64,000 nucleotides of DNA from Noviherbaspirillum cavernae (GTDB lineage: Bacteria > Pseudomonadota > Gammaproteobacteria > Burkholderiales > Burkholderiaceae_D). The position numbers were made by a program, and so were the translations under genes. The DNA is taken from assembly GCF_003590875.1 (NCBI RefSeq), contig NZ_QYUN01000002.1, positions 2,604,001 through 2,668,000 of the forward strand, given 5' to 3'. Below, piece by piece: positions 10,588-21,695 of the stretch. Below the pieces are notes generated by a model. It saw only the letters and a list, made by a program, of their open reading frames with translations. It searched no databases and had not been told where the DNA came from. Each line of letters opens with the position of its first letter. Positions within the stretch are counted from its first letter, which is position 1.

Positions 10588-11286
<699 letters not shown>

Positions 11287-12336: not shown

Positions 12337-13089
12337 ATGGAAAGTTACAAGTTGTTAGCCTTGGTACAAAGCGGTCACGCAATCGAGACATTGGAAGAAT
12401 TCAAGGCGTGGGTCAGCGGCCCCCTAAAGGATTATTTTCCGCATGACATGATGCTATGCGCACAGGGCCACATGATGTCTGACGAGATCCACATCAAGCA
12501 TCTGATCGCGATCAACTATCCGGAGCATTTCGTTTCCCATCTGGCCAAGAGCATGACCTTGAGCGTGAAGGACCGCATCGTCCTTCAACGATGGCTGCTC
12601 GAATCGAGAGCGCAAATCGTCGACACGCCGGACGCAATCAGCAAATTATCGAAACTGGAGCAGGCGGAGTTTGCGATGCTCGGCCGCACCAACATGGCGG
12701 TATACGGATGCATCGATATCACGGGCCAGGCCGGGAGCTATTTCTCCTTTTCGAACATTCCGGGCTCGCTGACCGAATCACACCGCTGCCAGCTTGAATT
12801 GATCGTGCCCTACCTGCACCAGCTCCTGATTCGCATCCACCATCAGCAGCGAAAAAAATCGGACCTGCCCAGGAGCGCGTCGATCAGGCTGACAGAAAGG
12901 GAAACCCAGATCCTGCAGCTGATGGCAGCGGGCATGTCGAATCGCGCGATCGCCGAAATGCTGTCGCGCAGCGAATTGACGATACAAAACCATGTCCATG
13001 CGATCCTGAAAAAAATGGGCGTCCCCAATCGCGCCGCCGCGGTCGGGGCGATCCCGAGCATCAGCGAAATCAGCGCGCCATACTCTTGA
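12337..13089 (+). CDS. epsA: EpsA-type LuxR-family transcriptional regulator
   Basis: A 250-residue regulator with an N-terminal sensing region of the type found in XrtB/PEP-CTERM-associated EpsA proteins and a C-terminal LuxR HTH (LTERETQILQLMAAGMSNRA, IAEMLSRSELTIQNHVHAIL, KKMGVPNRAAAVG). It has no receiver or acyl-homoserine lactone pocket motif that I can see. EpsA proteins usually sit next to exopolysaccharide genes. This one does not in this window. The ATG at 12337 is chosen because the region before it is not protein-like. Confidence 0.75.
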   Translation: MESYKLLALVQSGHAIETLEEFKAWVSGPLKDYFPHDMMLCAQGHMMSDEIHIKHLIAINYPEHFVSHLAKSMTLSVKDRIVLQRWLLESRAQIVDTPDAISKLSKLEQAEFAMLGRTNMAVYGCIDITGQAGSYFSFSNIPGSLTESHRCQLELIVPYLHQLLIRIHHQQRKKSDLPRSASIRLTERETQILQLMAAGMSNRAIAEMLSRSELTIQNHVHAILKKMGVPNRAAAVGAIPSISEISAPYS

Positions 13090-15814: not shown

Positions 15815-15849
15815 GCTGCAGTATCGGGTTTGCATGAATTACACAAACC

Positions 15850-15883
15850 GTTCGTTAATCGCACCGTCCGCTGATTATCGAAC
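15850..15883. promoter_or_regulatory. PcaR-like operator upstream of the second binding protein
   Basis: GTTCGTTAATCGCAC (15850-15864) matches the pcaI/pcaR operator GTTCGATTATCGAAC at 12 of 15 positions. GATTATCGAAC (15873-15883) is identical to the last 11 bases of that operator. The two lie about 113 bases before the binding-protein ATG, so control by the IclR-type PcaR is likely. Confidence 0.55.
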
Positions 15884-15995
15884 CCCGATCCGCTATGATG
15901 ACCGCCATGGGCGGCGTGTCCTGCTGCACCATTTGGCAGAAACGCGGCATCGATCGCACAAGACATCAATCAACAGGTCACCTCCAGGAGAGACA

Positions 15996-17171
15996 ATGAA
16001 ACTCATGAAGAAATTAACCGTCCTCGCAGCACTCGGCATGGCGGGCATCCTACCGCTGGCCGCTCATGCGCAAGAAACGATCAAGATCGGCCTGGTCGCG
16101 CCCTTCTCCGGACCCTTCGCCGACTACGGCAAGCAGATGGAAGGCGGCATCAAGGCCTACATGAAGCAGCACGGCGACAAGGTCGCCGGCAAGAAGATCG
16201 AAATCATCATGAAGGACACCACCGGCCCGGTGCCGGAAGTCGCCAAGCGCCTCGCGCAGGAACTCGTGGTACGCGACAAGGTGGACTTCCTCGCCGGCTT
16301 CGGTCTGACGCCTGAAGCACTGGCCGTCGCGCCGATCGCGGAACAAGCCAAGAAGCCGATGATCATCATGAACGCGGCCACTTCCGTCATCACCACCAAG
16401 TCGAACTACATCGCCCGCGTGTCGATGACCCTGCCGCAGATTTCGGCACCGATGGCGACATGGGCGTTGAAGACCGGCATGAAGCGCGTCGTCACGCTGG
16501 TGGCCGACTACGGCCCCGGTATCGACGCTGAAACTGCATTCAAGACCAACTTCGTGGGCGGCGGCGGCCAGATCGTCGAATCGATCCGCGTCCCGCTGAA
16601 GAATCCGGAATTCTCGCCGTTCATCCAGCGCATCAAGGATGCCAAGCCGGAAGCCGTGTTCATCTTCGTGCCGGCCGGCGAACAAAGCATCGCCTTCATG
16701 AAGGGCTATCGCGAGCGCGGTCTGGCCGAGGCCGGCATCAAGGTCATCGCCACCGGCGACCTGACCGACGACCACGTGCTGCCGGCCATGGGCGACGCGG
16801 TGCTGGGCGTGATCACCTCGTTCCACTACTCCGCCGCGCACAACTCGCCAGAGAACAAGGCCTTCCTGAAGAGCTTCGCCGAAGCCAACCCGCAAGGCGG
16901 CCGTCCGAACTTCATGGCGGTAGCCGCCTATGACGGCATGCATGCGATCTACGAAGTGTCGAAGAAGCTGAACGGCAAGATCGACGGCGACAAGGCAATG
17001 GCCGTGCTGAAAGGCATGAAGATCAACAGCCCGCGCGGCCCGCTGACCATCGATCCGGCAACACGCGACGCAGTGCAGACCGTGTATATCCGCCGCGTCG
17101 AGAAGGTCAACGGCGAGCCGTATAACATCGAGTTCGACAAGTTCGTGGATGTGAAGGATCCGGGCAAGTAA
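15996..17171 (+). CDS. Liv-type ABC transporter binding protein, probably for an aromatic acid
   Basis: A 391-residue periplasmic binding protein of the type 1 (LivK) fold. The signal peptide is MKLMKKLTVLAALGMAGILP followed by LAAHA, and the mature part begins QETIKIGLVAPFSGPFADYG. The ATG at 15996 has CCAGGAGAGACA before it. It lies directly after pobA and carries PcaR-like operator sequences upstream, so an aromatic-acid ligand (4-hydroxybenzoate, protocatechuate or similar) is inferred. Its likely partners livHMGF lie on the other side of the inserted cassette array, in the opposite orientation. Confidence 0.88.
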   Translation: MKLMKKLTVLAALGMAGILPLAAHAQETIKIGLVAPFSGPFADYGKQMEGGIKAYMKQHGDKVAGKKIEIIMKDTTGPVPEVAKRLAQELVVRDKVDFLAGFGLTPEALAVAPIAEQAKKPMIIMNAATSVITTKSNYIARVSMTLPQISAPMATWALKTGMKRVVTLVADYGPGIDAETAFKTNFVGGGGQIVESIRVPLKNPEFSPFIQRIKDAKPEAVFIFVPAGEQSIAFMKGYRERGLAEAGIKVIATGDLTDDHVLPAMGDAVLGVITSFHYSAAHNSPENKAFLKSFAEANPQGGRPNFMAVAAYDGMHAIYEVSKKLNGKIDGDKAMAVLKGMKINSPRGPLTIDPATRDAVQTVYIRRVEKVNGEPYNIEFDKFVDVKDPGK

Positions 17172-17354: not shown

Positions 17355-17424
17355 GCACAGCCGAAGCTCAGCCGACGGCAAACCGCGTAGCGAGTTGATG
17401 GTCGGCTGCAGCGCTTTGTTGGGC
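17355..17424 (-). other. Decayed attC site ending the cassette array
   Basis: Read on minus, the site opens with GCCCAAC (17424-17418) and continues AAAGCGCTGCAGCCGAC. After a 24-base loop the mirror arm GTCGGCTGAGCTT (17376-17364) follows. The arms pair with unpaired bases, as attC hairpins do. The closing GTTRRRY core is missing: GTG stands where GTT is expected. This is the attC of the DUF1905 cassette with a lost or mutated crossover point. Confidence 0.6.
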
Positions 17425-17442
17425 GTATACGACTCCATGCCG

Positions 17443-17991
17443 CTAGTCCGCTGCCTGAGGTGCGCTGAGGCTCTTGCTATAGAAGCCCGATTGATCAAAG
17501 CAGCAGACACGCTTCTTGCCCGAAGAAAGCATGTCGCAGGCGTTTTCCACCCGCTGTTTTCGAGTCTTGGCCTGCTTCGCAGATTCAATCCAGTGGACCC
17601 AATCGACACGTGCGATGGTCGTGGTGTCCTCCCAGGCAGCCTTGGCTGCCGGAGAGACAGCGAGAGCTTCCTGCAGATCATCCGGCAGCTGCGGTTCCGG
17701 CTCTGGATTGGCCGGTGAAATTTGGATCGCAACCATTTCGCCAATGTTCGCGCAGGCAGCCTCACGCAGTCCCTTGCTCACCTTGAGCCAATGGCTTAAC
17801 TGACCATCCGGTTCAAGCGTGGCTTGAAAGAGGTACCCGTTGATGGTGCCCTCGACCGACGTCCTGCCACGCCTTGGCAACGTGTCACTTGCGCTTTTTG
17901 GCAGAACAAGAAAAGCCCATGAATCATCGTTACCCGGTTTTGTCGGGCGAAGCAGCTTTGATTCGAATGTAGACACGTCAGCTTTTTCCAT
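17443..17991 (-). CDS. DUF1905/YdeI-type protein in an integron cassette
   Basis: A 182-residue protein. Residues ~10-95 fit DUF1905 (WAFLVLPKSASDTLPRRGRT, SVEGTINGYLFQATLEPDGQ, HWLKVSKGLREAACANIGEM), and residues ~100-165 fit the YdeI/OmpD-associated helical region (LPDDLQEALAVSPAAKAAWE, VDWVHWIESAKQAKTRKQRV). The family is common in integron cassettes and genomic islands, and its biochemical role is not settled. The start ATG lies 24 bases inside the cassette, whose first bases are TTGGAC, with AAAGGAA as binding site. Confidence 0.75.
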   Translation of the reverse strand: MEKADVSTFESKLLRPTKPGNDDSWAFLVLPKSASDTLPRRGRTSVEGTINGYLFQATLEPDGQLSHWLKVSKGLREAACANIGEMVAIQISPANPEPEPQLPDDLQEALAVSPAAKAAWEDTTTIARVDWVHWIESAKQAKTRKQRVENACDMLSSGKKRVCCFDQSGFYSKSLSAPQAAD

Positions 17992-18008
17992 TTCGAAATT
18001 CCTTTGAT

Positions 18009-18074
18009 GTCCAACGTAGAAGTGAGCGGCGCTGAGCCGGTTGGTGAAGCGTCCGCTCGACTGCCGGGTTATGC
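18009..18074 (-). other. attC recombination site between two cassettes
   Basis: A 66-bp site read on minus. It has a first core GCATAAC (18074-18068), left arm GAGCGG-A-CGC, a loop, right arm GCGCCGCTC, and final core GTTGGAC (18015-18009). The arms pair perfectly except for one extrahelical A, the hallmark of attC folding. The TAA stop of the OLD-family gene lies inside the first core, as is common in cassettes. The TTGGAC of the last core belongs to the next cassette, which explains why it does not mirror GCATAAC. Confidence 0.85.
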
Positions 18075-19931
18075 ATTGGTTGCAAGCGCCGAATTAATAC
18101 ATTTCAGAACGTCATCGTCCTTTCCAATTTCTACAGGAAAACCTTGGACGCTGAGAATCTTGCTCTCAATCGAAACAACGAGCTTTTCTCCTTTAATAGC
18201 CAGCGAAAATAATTTTGATCTCTCACCTAGTATTGATCGGGCTAGCAAGTTGAAGTTGGGTGAGGAGTCGCCGCTCTTGAATCTGGCATGTGCGGGCGCA
18301 ACCACTGAAAGCAGAAGGTCCCTCAACGCATCCGCCTCACAAATTGCTTCGGCGTTTGAGGCATAGCGAATACATCGCACTACATCAAAATATGCGGAGG
18401 AGACATCATCGGCGGTAAACGGAGTGAGGGCGTCGATTTCGCTAACAGCTGCACTTGGTTTACCGATCGAAGTGAAACGATCTGAATTTAGGTAGTAAGA
18501 CTCAATTGATCCCCTACGCAAAACGAACAGACCGCATTGCTCCAGCAAGTCAAGCAATGCCACAAGTCGATGTTTTATGCTCGCCCAAGCGCTGTCGGTT
18601 GCCAACTGCGTTAGTTCATTGTCGGTGCATGTAAATAGCGTACAAAAAGCAGCCCGGCGCTTTGCTTGAGTTTCCTCATCGGCATTCCTATTCACCCAAT
18701 ATGGATGCACCTCGGCGCTGGCGGAAACTTCGCCCCACCGACTATCCACCAATTTGCAGAAATCCGCGAAAATCGCTCCAGACATTTGTTGCGCGGAAGG
18801 AAACCCCAATGAGCTAGCGTGCTTATCTGCGTCAGGGTTGTCGATGAGGTAGGAGCTGGCCAGATCAACCCCATCAGCAAATCCATCCGCGTCAGCCAAT
18901 GCCACTGGAGTCTTTCCTAGCAGCCTCAGCAATTTTGCAACGGCTGGCATTTGCCCCTTGCCGATGACAGGAAGAAGCTGTGATCCGGCGGCTTCGAGAT
19001 GCATATCTAGCTTGCTCGCTAGGGCACTGCATATGATTACGTCAGAAGGCCCTTCAACAAGTAGAGGACGTTTGGAAAATAGCGACAACTTATGCTCTTG
19101 GCCCAGGCGAGCAATTAGACTTTGTACTTTCTTATTTTTTAGCTCACCAGCATCGGCCGGAATCTGAACGGGGTCAGTCATAAGGTCATAACAGAAGACA
19201 AGAGATAACAAGTCTTCTGGTCTTTGAATTTGGAGCATTTCCGTTGAGTGCGTCGCAATGATTACGATCTTCTTGTTGGCTCCGGCTGCCGGATGCCCCG
19301 AAACACGAAGGATTTCATTCAAAAGAAACGCCTGCAACTGAGGATGCAACGACACCTCGGGTTCATCGAGAAGAAGTGCGCCGACATCATCGTCATACAG
19401 AGCCGCAAGTATTCCAACCAATTGCATTAGGCCGGATGCCTCGCGGCCCGAAGAGTATGGTTTGGCTTCTATGTCTAAGCGGGAAAATGAAATTTTTAAG
19501 TTCCCACCATCCCAGTCAATAAGAACGTCTCTCTTAAATAGCTTTCTAAGTCGCTCCTGAATTTTTATCAGAATGTCAGCCCGCTCCGCGAGCGTTTGGA
19601 AATCCCCATTTAAGGTTTCCATCCGATGTCTGCGAGCAGCATCTCCTTTGCTGCCATAGGTTGCTTCGTCATACATTGGAGAGCCACCACGATGCCCATC
19701 GAAGTCTGATCTGAACTGCTCCAACATCCCCATGCGACCAGCTGAGAGGAACCGCACATGCTTACCATTCATGTGCTGGTTAAGACTGTTCTTTAGTCCC
19801 CTAAGAATGTGTGTCTTACCAGATCCGTTTGGTCCAAGCAGAACTGTAAGGCCTCGGTTCAAAGTGAACATACGGGTGAAGTTGCCGTTGTGGCTGTTAA
19901 TTTGCGCTGTCAGTTCTAGAGGGAAATTCAC
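18069..19931 (-). CDS. OLD-family ATPase/TOPRIM nuclease-like protein (integron cassette)
   Basis: A 620-residue protein. The N-terminal ABC-type ATPase has Walker A GPNGSGKT (33-40), signature SSGREASG (~160), Walker B ALLLDEPEVSLHP (~190) and the H-switch IIATHSTEM. The C-terminal TOPRIM half has LLVEGPSDVIICSALA (~290) and VALADADGF (~345), giving the E and DxD of an OLD nuclease. Overcoming-lysogenization-defect proteins act in phage defence, so that is the likely role. GTG at 19931 starts 22 bases after the cassette's crossover G. Base use is clearly more A/T-rich than the flanking pca and liv genes, consistent with transfer. Confidence 0.85.
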   Translation of the reverse strand: MNFPLELTAQINSHNGNFTRMFTLNRGLTVLLGPNGSGKTHILRGLKNSLNQHMNGKHVRFLSAGRMGMLEQFRSDFDGHRGGSPMYDEATYGSKGDAARRHRMETLNGDFQTLAERADILIKIQERLRKLFKRDVLIDWDGGNLKISFSRLDIEAKPYSSGREASGLMQLVGILAALYDDDVGALLLDEPEVSLHPQLQAFLLNEILRVSGHPAAGANKKIVIIATHSTEMLQIQRPEDLLSLVFCYDLMTDPVQIPADAGELKNKKVQSLIARLGQEHKLSLFSKRPLLVEGPSDVIICSALASKLDMHLEAAGSQLLPVIGKGQMPAVAKLLRLLGKTPVALADADGFADGVDLASSYLIDNPDADKHASSLGFPSAQQMSGAIFADFCKLVDSRWGEVSASAEVHPYWVNRNADEETQAKRRAAFCTLFTCTDNELTQLATDSAWASIKHRLVALLDLLEQCGLFVLRRGSIESYYLNSDRFTSIGKPSAAVSEIDALTPFTADDVSSAYFDVVRCIRYASNAEAICEADALRDLLLSVVAPAHARFKSGDSSPNFNLLARSILGERSKLFSLAIKGEKLVVSIESKILSVQGFPVEIGKDDDVLKCINSALATNA

Positions 19932-19947
19932 AGGGGATGCCTCTTAT

Positions 19948-20027
19948 GCATAACTCGATTTATACAGCACGACCTGTCCGTATAACACGGCGCCTGCTGT
20001 ATAACGTGGCACCGACGGAATCGTCAA
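19948..20027 (-). other. attI-like integron insertion site with a possible cassette promoter
   Basis: Read on minus, three GTTA-type cores occur: GTTATAC (20005-19999), GTTATAC (19986-19980) and the crossover GTTATGC (19954-19948). The spacings are 19 and 32 bases. These equal the distances between the two direct-repeat cores and the crossover in class 1 attI, as I recall its sequence. AGCAG follows the first core in both. TTGACG (20027-20022), 18 bases and TATACA (20003-19998) could serve as a promoter for the cassettes. No integrase gene adjoins it. Confidence 0.65.
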
Positions 20028-20178
20028 AAGCCGCGCCGATACTGGTTTTCCCGGCACATCTGGCAATTTTGCACAGTATTAATCAAACGGCAAAAAGCGG
20101 CAAGCAATCCGACGCCACGGACATGCGGCGGGGACTTGCTGGATGGCGGCGAAGGCGGGGAAGCGGGAGAGGACGACG

Positions 20179-20200
20179 ACGTGGACCGACCGGTCCACGT
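20179..20200 (-). terminator. Hairpin after the second livF
   Basis: ACGTGGACC (20179-20187) and GGTCCACGT (20192-20200) form a perfect 9-bp stem with a GACC loop, about 30 bases downstream of the livF stop on the minus strand. No T-tract follows. Confidence 0.5.
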
Positions 20201-20230
20201 GTCATGGAGGGGAAAATCAATCGAAGCGCG

Positions 20231-20935
20231 TCAGTGCGCGACGGCCACCAGGCGGTCCAGCTTGTCCTTGTCCTGCATCAGACTCTCGCTGTCCGACTCG
20301 TGGACGATCTGACCGCGGTCGAGCACGATGGCGCGCTTGGTGATCGAGAGCGCCAGTCGTGCGTGCTGTTCGACGACGATGACGGACATGCCCTTGTCGA
20401 CGACCAGCTGGCGGATCACGCGCATCAATTCCTGCACGATGATCGGGGCAAGGCCTTCCATCGGTTCGTCCAGCAGCAGCAGCTTCGGGTTGACCATCAG
20501 CGCGCGCGCGATCGCGAGCATCTGCTGTTCGCCGCCGGAGAGCTGGTTGCCCATGTTGTTGCGGCGTTCCTGCAGGCGCGGGAAGATTTCATAAATCTTC
20601 TTCACGTCCCATTCGCCCGGCCGTGCGACGACGGTCAGGTGCTCCTCGACCGTCAGCGACGGAAACATGAAGCGTTCCTGCGGCACCCAGCCGAGTCCTG
20701 CGTGTGCGCGCAGGTAGGTCGGTACGCGCGCGATGTCGCCGCCCTGCCAGCGGATCTTGCCGCCGTGCATGCGGGTCAGGCCCATCAGCGTGACCAGCAG
20801 GCTGGTCTTGCCGACGCCGTTGCGTCCGAGCAGGGCGAGGCTGTCGCCTTCCTGCATTGCAAACGAAATTCCTTCGAGGACGACCGATTCACCATAGCCG
20901 GCCGTGACGTTGTCCAGCGCGAGCAATTCACTCAT
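20231..20935 (-). CDS. livF: Liv-type ABC transporter ATPase (LivF), second set
   Basis: A 234-residue ATPase with Walker A GRNGVGKT, HAGLGWVPQERFMFPSLTVE, signature LSGGEQQMLAIARALM, Walker B LLLLDEPMEGLAP and the switch VVEQHARLAL. Here the canonical EQH is kept, unlike the first livF. The ATG at 20935 overlaps the end of livG by eight bases. It is the last gene of the pcaB-D-C-livHMGF direction and lies next to the integron insertion. Confidence 0.9.
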   Translation of the reverse strand: MSELLALDNVTAGYGESVVLEGISFAMQEGDSLALLGRNGVGKTSLLVTLMGLTRMHGGKIRWQGGDIARVPTYLRAHAGLGWVPQERFMFPSLTVEEHLTVVARPGEWDVKKIYEIFPRLQERRNNMGNQLSGGEQQMLAIARALMVNPKLLLLDEPMEGLAPIIVQELMRVIRQLVVDKGMSVIVVEQHARLALSITKRAIVLDRGQIVHESDSESLMQDKDKLDRLVAVAH

Positions 20936-21695
20936 GTTCCGCTTCTCCCAGATACACTTCCTTGACCCGCGGGTCGGCTGCAATTTCCGCGGGCGTCCCT
21001 TCCGTCAGCACCTTGCCGCCGACCAGCACCGTGATGCGCTCGGCAAAGCGGAACACCAGATTCATGTCGTGCTCGATGAAAACGACGGTCACCTCGCGCG
21101 GCAGGCGCGCGATGACGTCGAACAGCTCCGCGCTTTCCGCCGACGGGATGCCCGCGGCGGGTTCGTCCAGCAGCAGCACCTTGGGCTTGGTCGCCAGTGC
21201 CAGCGCGATTTCCACCAGACGCTGCTTGCCGTACGGCAGGCTGCGCGTGATGGTGTCGGCGTCGCGCTCCAGCTTGAGCAGCGTGAGCAGCTCCATCGCT
21301 TCGTCGATCGTCGCGCTTTCCTGGGCAACGGTCTTGTACCAGACGAATTGCATGCCCTTGCGTTCATTGATCGCCAGCACGACCGATTCCAGCACAGTCA
21401 ATCCGGCGAACAGCGTATTGATCTGGAACGTGCGGGTCATGCCGAGCTTGACGCGCTTGTGCTGCGGCAGCGCCGTGATGTCTTCGTCGCCGAAGAACAC
21501 CTTGCCGCTGGTGGGTGCGAAAAAGCCGGTCAGCAGGTTGATGAAGGTGGTCTTGCCCGCGCCGTTCGGCCCGATCAGCGCATGGCGCGCGCCTGGCTGG
21601 AACGTCAGGCTGACATCGCTGTTGGCCTTGAACGCGCCCCACTGTTTGGACAGTCCTTCCGTGCGCAATGTAGTGTTCGGCAGTGTCGTGCTCAT
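20928..21695 (-). CDS. livG: Liv-type ABC transporter ATPase (LivG), second set
   Basis: A 255-residue ATPase. Walker A GPNGAGKT is near residue 42, the signature region SLPYGKQRLVEIALAL has a K where E is usual, Walker B is LLLDEPAAGIPSAESAELFD and the H-switch is FIEHDMNLVF. The gene follows livM, overlapping by four bases. It probably drives uptake with the binding protein at 15996-17171. Confidence 0.9.
   Translation of the reverse strand: MSTTLPNTTLRTEGLSKQWGAFKANSDVSLTFQPGARHALIGPNGAGKTTFINLLTGFFAPTSGKVFFGDEDITALPQHKRVKLGMTRTFQINTLFAGLTVLESVVLAINERKGMQFVWYKTVAQESATIDEAMELLTLLKLERDADTITRSLPYGKQRLVEIALALATKPKVLLLDEPAAGIPSAESAELFDVIARLPREVTVVFIEHDMNLVFRFAERITVLVGGKVLTEGTPAEIAADPRVKEVYLGEAEHE

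Follow-up and report, generated by a model that had tools for sequence, protein, structure and literature searches.

A probable integron relic with attI and an intI stub in Noviherbaspirillum cavernae, among about eleven integrase-free attI-headed loci of one genome

Introduction

Clusters of attC sites lacking integron integrases (CALINs) have been proposed to be degraded integrons (PMC9024848, PMC12444791). Their origin is usually read either as the decay of an integron or as off-target insertion, two routes that are hard to separate, and the attachment site attI is poorly described outside class 1. The definition of a CALIN rests on attC only, and IntegronFinder detects attI just for class 1 (PMC9024848), while an early survey found about a third of intI genes to be pseudogenes (PMC2426708). 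Here we describe a two-cassette array in a 64-kb stretch of the Noviherbaspirillum cavernae genome (64,000 bp, hereafter the window) that probably represents the relic of a chromosomal integron, with attI and the first codons of the integrase gene intI still recognizable beside it.

Two described situations come closest. In Xanthomonas, intI loss is lineage-specific, arrays are stable and CALINs occur at several loci, as here, and X. citri pv. citri carries a two-cassette CALIN; in contrast to our genome, intI, in genomes that retain it, occupies a single site (ilvD), and the retrieved sections mention no attI copies at CALINs (PMC12444791). In delta-attI-type cassettes, attI serves as the downstream cassette site, and the attI-ORF-attI form, which IntI1 excised at 100%, resembles two arrangements of our genome (L085 and L008, below); however, these cassettes belong to class 1 and 2 mobile integrons, their commonest forms retain 14-18 nt of attI, and no chromosome-wide dispersal is described in the retrieved sections (PMC12901181). 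The window shares with CALINs at least two tandem attC in correct polarity and no intI beside them (PMC9024848), but it keeps attI and an intI 5' stub and has ten sister platforms in the same genome. The single locus is therefore a CALIN retaining attI, which is a known kind, whereas the dispersed family of integrase-free, attI-headed loci is new, and ten similar remnants elsewhere in one genome are unusual. A search of the integron literature, covering the top-ranked results among open-access papers, found no many-attI chromosome, and mentions of Noviherbaspirillum were incidental. Since attI and the intI stub are recognizable here, integron decay is demonstrated, and a genome with about eleven platforms allows one to ask how attI sites multiply and stay usable without an integrase, and whether likely defence cassettes persist after the element freezes.

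Organization of the locus

The genome (G000) comprises four contigs and is 99.84% complete; the window lies on contig C2. Between livF and a substrate-binding protein (SBP) gene it carries an array that we read, with a probability of about 0.93, as what is left of a chromosomal integron: attI joined to an intI stub, two ordered cassettes with their attC sites, and the integrase gone. The reading rests on attC model matches at both sites, with nothing comparable elsewhere in the window; on homology of attI and stub to an integrase locus on contig C3 (integrase model positions 1-176) and to loci of other genomes (L057, L058, L112); on the position of 11 of the 12 attC matches of the genome downstream of such modules, the empty sites in relatives and the similarity that ends at the crossover core; on homologues of the first cassette gene, in Methylophilus and on a Vibrio plasmid, that carry an attC-like site at their stop codons; and on the lack of any integron integrase above cut-off in this genome, in contrast to 30 of 245 family genomes. 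Recombination of attI with attC at G19954 would have inserted the cassettes, with IntI supplied by the then-whole gene or in trans, and loss of everything in intI past about codon 13 would have left the array frozen.

Read on the minus strand, the order is livF, about 120 bp, a reversed intI stub, a spacer, attI, the OLD gene, attC1, the DUF1905/OmdA gene, attC2, about 180 bp and the SBP gene. The features are listed below, where R1 and R2 denote the covariance models of the stub-spacer-attI module and of attC, and PWM denotes a position weight matrix plus arm-complementarity score.

20231..20983, minus strand: livF, host gene on the intI side (Pfam)
19954..20110, minus strand: intI stub, spacer and attI, the full conserved module (R1 match G000:C2:2623950-2624109, 126.5 bits, a score by construction, as the window copy is among the seven sequences building R1)
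20069..20107, plus strand: intI stub, about 13 codons, LHSINQTAKSGKQ (compared with MYSINENAKTGKP of the C3 integrase fragment)
19954..20006, minus strand: attI core, 53 bp, last base the crossover G at 19954 (homology to other modules of the genome)
18015..19953, minus strand: gene cassette 1, opening with TTATGC next to the crossover G and closing with the G of the attC1 right core (sequence; edges match Methylophilus sp. 14, L130)
18069..19931, minus strand: OLD-like ATPase-nuclease gene, 620 aa, AAA_21 and OLD-like TOPRIM (Pfam)
18009..18074, minus strand: attC1 (R2 41.9 bits, E 1.5e-8; PWM 46.8)
17443..17991, minus strand: cassette 2 gene, DUF1905 and OmdA (YdeI/OmpD-associated), 182 aa (Pfam; homologues)
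17355..17424, minus strand: attC2, right core damaged (R2 36.5 bits, E 4.1e-7)
15834..17171, plus strand: branched-chain amino-acid-type SBP gene, host gene on the cassette side (Pfam)

The minus-strand letters are G at 19954, TTATGC from 19953, GCATAAC at 18074, GTTGGAC at 18015-18009 and GCCCAAC at 17424, and they agree, together with coordinates and array order, with a preliminary description made from the sequence. The A/T-richer DNA noted there shows in the GC content: cassette 1 has 49.4% and cassette 2 has 56.1%, whereas the two flanks have 61.0% and 62.9%. That description also took the array to separate the SBP gene from its probable liv partners; it does lie between them, but livF and the SBP gene converge on it, so no obvious operon is broken. 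The closest named relatives of the SBP are mostly from Noviherbaspirillum, in keeping with the Oxalobacteraceae proposed for comparison. With at least two clustered attC and no nearby integrase, the locus is a CALIN. As in a complete integron, the array stands at the attI crossover and attI lies beside intI, although only a stub of the latter remains and a functional intI is missing.

The attC sites

The PWM was trained on 23 attC from integrase-bearing loci of other genomes, chosen by eye among scan results (relatives only, a single orientation per site). Thirteen of the 23 were aligned and, once three misaligned 63-nt sites had been dropped, the remaining 10 formed R2, all of them from other genomes and none from the window. 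The two best R2 matches in the 64 kb were attC1 and attC2, 0.65 kb apart, and the third-best of six matches (E up to 10) reached 17.7 bits. A model search at 18009-18074 had been named beforehand as one of two tests that could refute the integron interpretation, and the site matched it at 41.9 bits (E 1.5e-8). With filters off, R2 gave only 11.4 bits for attC1 and 4.0 bits for attC2 on the plus strand, far below the minus-strand scores, so the polarity of the array is correct, as had been claimed. Both sites have R''/R' and L''/L' arms with an extrahelical base in the proper strand polarity. The second site had been called decayed; its right core is indeed damaged, GTT being lost, but its arms are retained and its 36.5 bits mark it as better preserved than the word implied.

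The PWM score of 46.8 for 18009-18074 compares with a leave-one-out range of 34-64 for the training sites, a runner-up of 18.1 on both strands of the 64 kb and a best value of 32.5 in 5.12 Mb of Markov-1 sequence; a control on the livF loci of 14 relatives (104,564 strand-bases) gave one match of at least 24 (29.7, L021). In the R2 alignment 20 pairs covary, with 33 cells changed on both sides against 9.9 expected from shuffles, a count biased towards structure because the R2 sites came from a paired-arm scan. Built from short-loop sites, R2 is weak on long loops and reported one of the five PWM-found attC of locus L127. An Rfam search at gathering scores returned a tRNA only. A minimum-free-energy hairpin scan and an arm scan requiring an R''/R' match both overlooked the window attC and most others, after which the criteria were relaxed.

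The attI site and the intI stub

A sequence 70% identical to window positions 19951-20105 was found upstream of the integrase fragment on C3, which begins MYSINENAKTGKP where the window carries LHSINQTAKSGKQ. A module profile from six genome copies matched the intI starts of other genomes, namely L057, where intI is intact (E 2.6e-9), and L058, where it has one in-frame stop (E 2.1e-6). Window-like attI regions were found upstream of intI in other genomes, including L112, with intact intI in G012 and G005. Among the aligned module copies, similarity stops at the crossover core. Judged by this homology to attI/intI 5' regions of its own and other genomes, what had been described as an attI-like site is a true attI joined to an intI 5' stub. 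The stub makes the loss of the integrase directly visible, no longer an inference alone, and it qualifies the statement that no intI is present on either side: no integrase match was obtained, but a stub of the gene remains.

The integron-integrase model TIGR02249 had no match in the window region, and nowhere in the assembly did a match exceed its curated cut-off (265). Of seven matches, the highest reached 225 bits over model positions 1-176 of 315 on contig C3, and the others stayed at about 83 bits or below; matches under the cut-off occurred in all 14 control genomes too. The lone integron-type integrase found in the genome thus ends after about 176 residues. Overlapping its start is a LexA-box-like sequence, CTGTACATAAATACAG.

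The window attI contains a perfect 10-bp inverted repeat with arms at 19960-19969 and 19995-20004 (TTATACAGCA/TGCTGTATAA). Such repeats (window 19960-20004; L160:4068-4224) have arms 25-26 bp apart whose letters are lineage-specific yet complementary, and the arms could possibly be candidate integrase binding arms. A strict attI pattern search of genome contigs gave no match, in a set that may not have included our genome. A candidate Pc promoter at attI (TTGCCG-16-TAATAC) was dropped, its second hexamer fitting poorly.

Module copies across the genome

The window locus had been presented as a single integrase-less integron; integrase-less it is, but the genome holds about eleven such platforms. 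They belong to at least two lineages, which go with the replicons, and none has a working intI. Seven copies, the window's among them, went into R1, and their scores are by construction; the matches at C3:462, 468, 470, C2:534, G062 and in other genomes were not used in building it. In the genome 150 of 734 candidates were scored, giving ten matches of at least 56.8 bits on two contigs with 49-91% pairwise identity:

C2, strong R1 copies: 147, 2624 (window), 3651, 3652 and 3757 kb
C3, strong R1 copies: 72, 74, 462, 469 and 471 kb

An eleventh, diverged copy at C2:534 kb (R1 18.3 bits, E 0.0055) is supported by an attC (48.4 bits) that lies 2.7 kb downstream; it has the same layout in different letters, including a perfect 10-bp inverted repeat, TTAGATGTCA/TGACATCTAA, identified by eye. 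A twelfth match (13.2 bits, E 0.2) was left out of the count. In a tree without C2:534, the C2 and C3 copies form two groups with 49-66% identity between them, which indicates at least two integron lineages, and a module copy of another genus (G062) clusters with the C3 group. When 150 of 8151 R2 candidates in the genome were scored, 11 of the 12 attC matches (E up to 1) lay 0.3-7.6 kb downstream of a module on the same strand. In five modules (C2:3651, C2:3757, C3:72, C3:74 and C3:469) the search for an attC immediately after the first gene gave none; at C3:74 the first attC stands 5 kb further on, beyond an insertion sequence.

The attI part (last 51 bp) is more alike than stub plus spacer in 35 of 36 pairs, with means of 78.7% and 61.3%; the count leaves out the degenerate 3651 copy, with which it becomes 41 of 45. 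The greater likeness of attI could mean that attI, not the cassette, multiplied and that the roughly eleven integrase-free, attI-headed platforms on two replicons are still usable, a suggestion that we put forward tentatively and regard as the less probable outcome. If true, the arrival of an IntI in trans could open many arrays to loading or shuffling at the same time.

Within family genomes, R1 matched (E up to 0.01) in 18 of 294 besides our own when 9 candidates were scored per genome, with one or two matches each, mostly below 25 bits. Of 245 family genomes, 30 encode an integrase above the cut-off; several of these genes contain in-frame stops, whereas those of G194 and G257 (60.5% identity to the C3 fragment) have none. 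In another genus, G062:C54:24858-25444 (L109) has a module beside a C-terminal intI part (model 191-315), the remainder being missing, and is a further case of intI loss.

Empty sites in relatives

The preliminary description had asked whether related genomes carry these genes ancestrally with no attC-like spacer. Three relatives in which livF and the SBP gene are direct neighbours (G005, G011 and G002; loci L023, L024 and L028) have no array. In G005 the two genes are convergent, in the window order, with 84 bp between the matched parts, and in G011 and G002 the SBP gene follows livF in the same direction. At the other 11 of the 14 fetched livF loci, a search of about 1.5 kb did not recover the window SBP gene, and the module was absent within that distance at all 14. 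Likewise, neither module nor attC (PWM of at least 26) occurred within about 1.5 kb of the rep locus in the 14 other genomes of the genus or of the SDR locus in the 10 genus genomes having that gene.

The cassette genes

The product of the first cassette matches PF13304 at 64.8 (cut-off 27) and PF20469 at 47.6 (cut-off 23.2), as an OLD-like nuclease should. In common with the OLD-family nucleases (PDB 6p74; GajA of Gabija, 8jq9) it has an AAA ATPase and an OLD-like TOPRIM domain, and its motifs GPNGSGKT, DEPE, EGPSD and DAD include Walker A, DEPE and TOPRIM-type motifs like theirs. PADLOC gave partial matches only, to GajA/AriA/Old. Membership in Gabija was rejected, as the gene is a stand-alone single-gene cassette whose neighbour is the DUF1905/OmdA gene and not a UvrD-like GajB, and its GajA profile matches are partial. 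Integron arrays often carry phage-defence genes, and from its family the OLD cassette is most likely a putative anti-phage defence.

Among 7998 sequences scored there were 1040 OLD homologues at E up to 0.001, and the 119 sequences that make up the best 120 together with the query were 65-88% identical, their hosts including genera as diverse as Aeromonas, Methylophilus, Klebsiella, Serratia and Duganella. Within the order, at E up to 1e-30, the gene was found in one genome besides our own of 399 (own included). The homologue of Methylophilus sp. 14 (L130) is 85% identical; similarity starts at GTT, and an attC-like site extends from the OLD stop codon (PWM 28.0, with one match of at least 28 in the 5.12-Mb null). 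The dN/dS between this gene and the window copy is about 0.08, indicating that the OLD gene has remained functional. A Vibrio parahaemolyticus plasmid carries a 58% homologue with a split reading frame, and behind it lies a site of PWM 38.5 whose first letters, at the stop codon, are again GCATAAC. No attC was found behind the OLD homologues in L126, L128, L129, L132 and L133, and L131 has an upstream one only. The cassette 2 product is predicted from its domains to be a YdeI/OmpD-associated protein, and a plasmid search with it returned nothing bearing on its cassette status.

Alternative explanations

Several results weigh against the integron-relic interpretation. R2 gives only 13.6 bits for the Methylophilus attC-like site and no match for the attC behind the Vibrio OLD gene (another attC of that array scores 33.5 bits), and no attC was found at an 82% OLD homologue in G673. 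A consensus scan predicted no sigma-70 promoter before the array or at attI, which leaves expression of the OLD cassette unproven. The flanks of the best empty site, L028, are only 74-79% similar, which places the boundaries of the inserted DNA only approximately, and no origin was identified for the sequence between stub and livF (20110-20231) or from attC2 to the end of the SBP gene. Finally, L021 (G007), a livF locus of a relative, has a borderline attC-like site at 34-88 (PWM 29.7; R2 16.7 bits, E 0.12), 1.4 kb from livF and beyond an MFS-like transporter gene.

The best-surviving alternative, possible but improbable in our judgement, is that the stub-attI module is itself a spreading repeat, the cassettes having come with or after it, and that a full integron never stood at the locus. 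Recombination copying, a helper transposase or the end of attI-type cassettes could have spread it. Ten strong copies in one genome and host sites that are empty in relatives are what such a repeat would leave. Five copies in four contexts (W, A146, B3757, D3652 and C3_72, with A146, the 147-kb copy, and B3757, the 3757-kb copy, counted as one) lose intI homology, by eye, within a few bases of codon 13, and ahead of the A146 copy lie about 50 bp similar to the rep gene end next to B3757. The attI-GFA gene-attI order of L085 and the attI-gene-intI fragment-attI order of L008 also resemble the attI-ORF-attI cassette (PMC12901181). On the other hand, no target duplication, inverted ends or shared transposase were noticed in the stretches read; stub lengths vary, from about 30 codons in C3_462, C3_468 and C3_470 to 176 in C3_73, and hence there is no single left end; and the left junctions of the modules have no G/TT core.

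Insertion of the cassettes into a non-classical site (attG or another secondary site), where no integron platform ever existed, is very unlikely. Insertions of the attG type are described (PMC12901181, PMC12444791), and about half of Xanthomonas genomes have CALINs elsewhere than at the intI site (PMC12444791), but such a site would have no attI/intI homology, whereas the left site here is homologous over about 157 bp to attI and the intI start of other integrons, in-frame intI codons included, and the stub already contradicts secondary-site insertion. Two ordinary horizontally acquired genes adjoining chance hairpins would account for the low GC, which is common to any acquired DNA, but we reject this as next to impossible, since attC matches at 1e-7 to 1e-8 fall precisely at the cassette ends and attI homology is added to them.

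Surroundings of the modules

Ahead of the 147-kb module lie about 50 bp that resemble, by eye, the 3' end of a rep/UvrD-type helicase gene (L083:9574-9860), and a complete gene of this kind stands before the 3757-kb module (L084:10264-10550); the 147-kb copy thus derives from the 3757-kb copy or both from a common source. At C3:72-74 kb (L008:9126-9270 and 10794-10949), attI is followed by a 209-aa gene and by an intI fragment with a second attI, and L085:9365-10077 repeats the attI-gene-attI order, the gene there being a GFA gene. Inspection by eye revealed no left end or transposase common to all modules; RAYT genes, REP (repetitive extragenic palindromic)-like sequences and insertion sequences lie near some modules only. 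The RAYT (Y1 transposase-like) genes or gene fragments, identified by eye, and REP-like palindromes (GTAGGGTGGGC...) are located at L084:8700-9750, L107:16400-16560 and 18600-18830, and L008:9970-10270 and 12820-12920, and one REP-like palindrome adjoins the truncated end of the C3 intI fragment. The C3 modules with stubs of about 30 codons (L107:10160-10320, 16589-16747 and 18903-19061) share a CTGCGGTTTGKGTGA-like stretch left of the stub, which forms the 3' end of different genes. Lastly, a lone attC of 36.6 bits at C2:1915472-1915550 (L161:4472-4550) stands before a GFA-family gene with no module found nearby, and is perhaps a single-attC insertion at a non-classical site.

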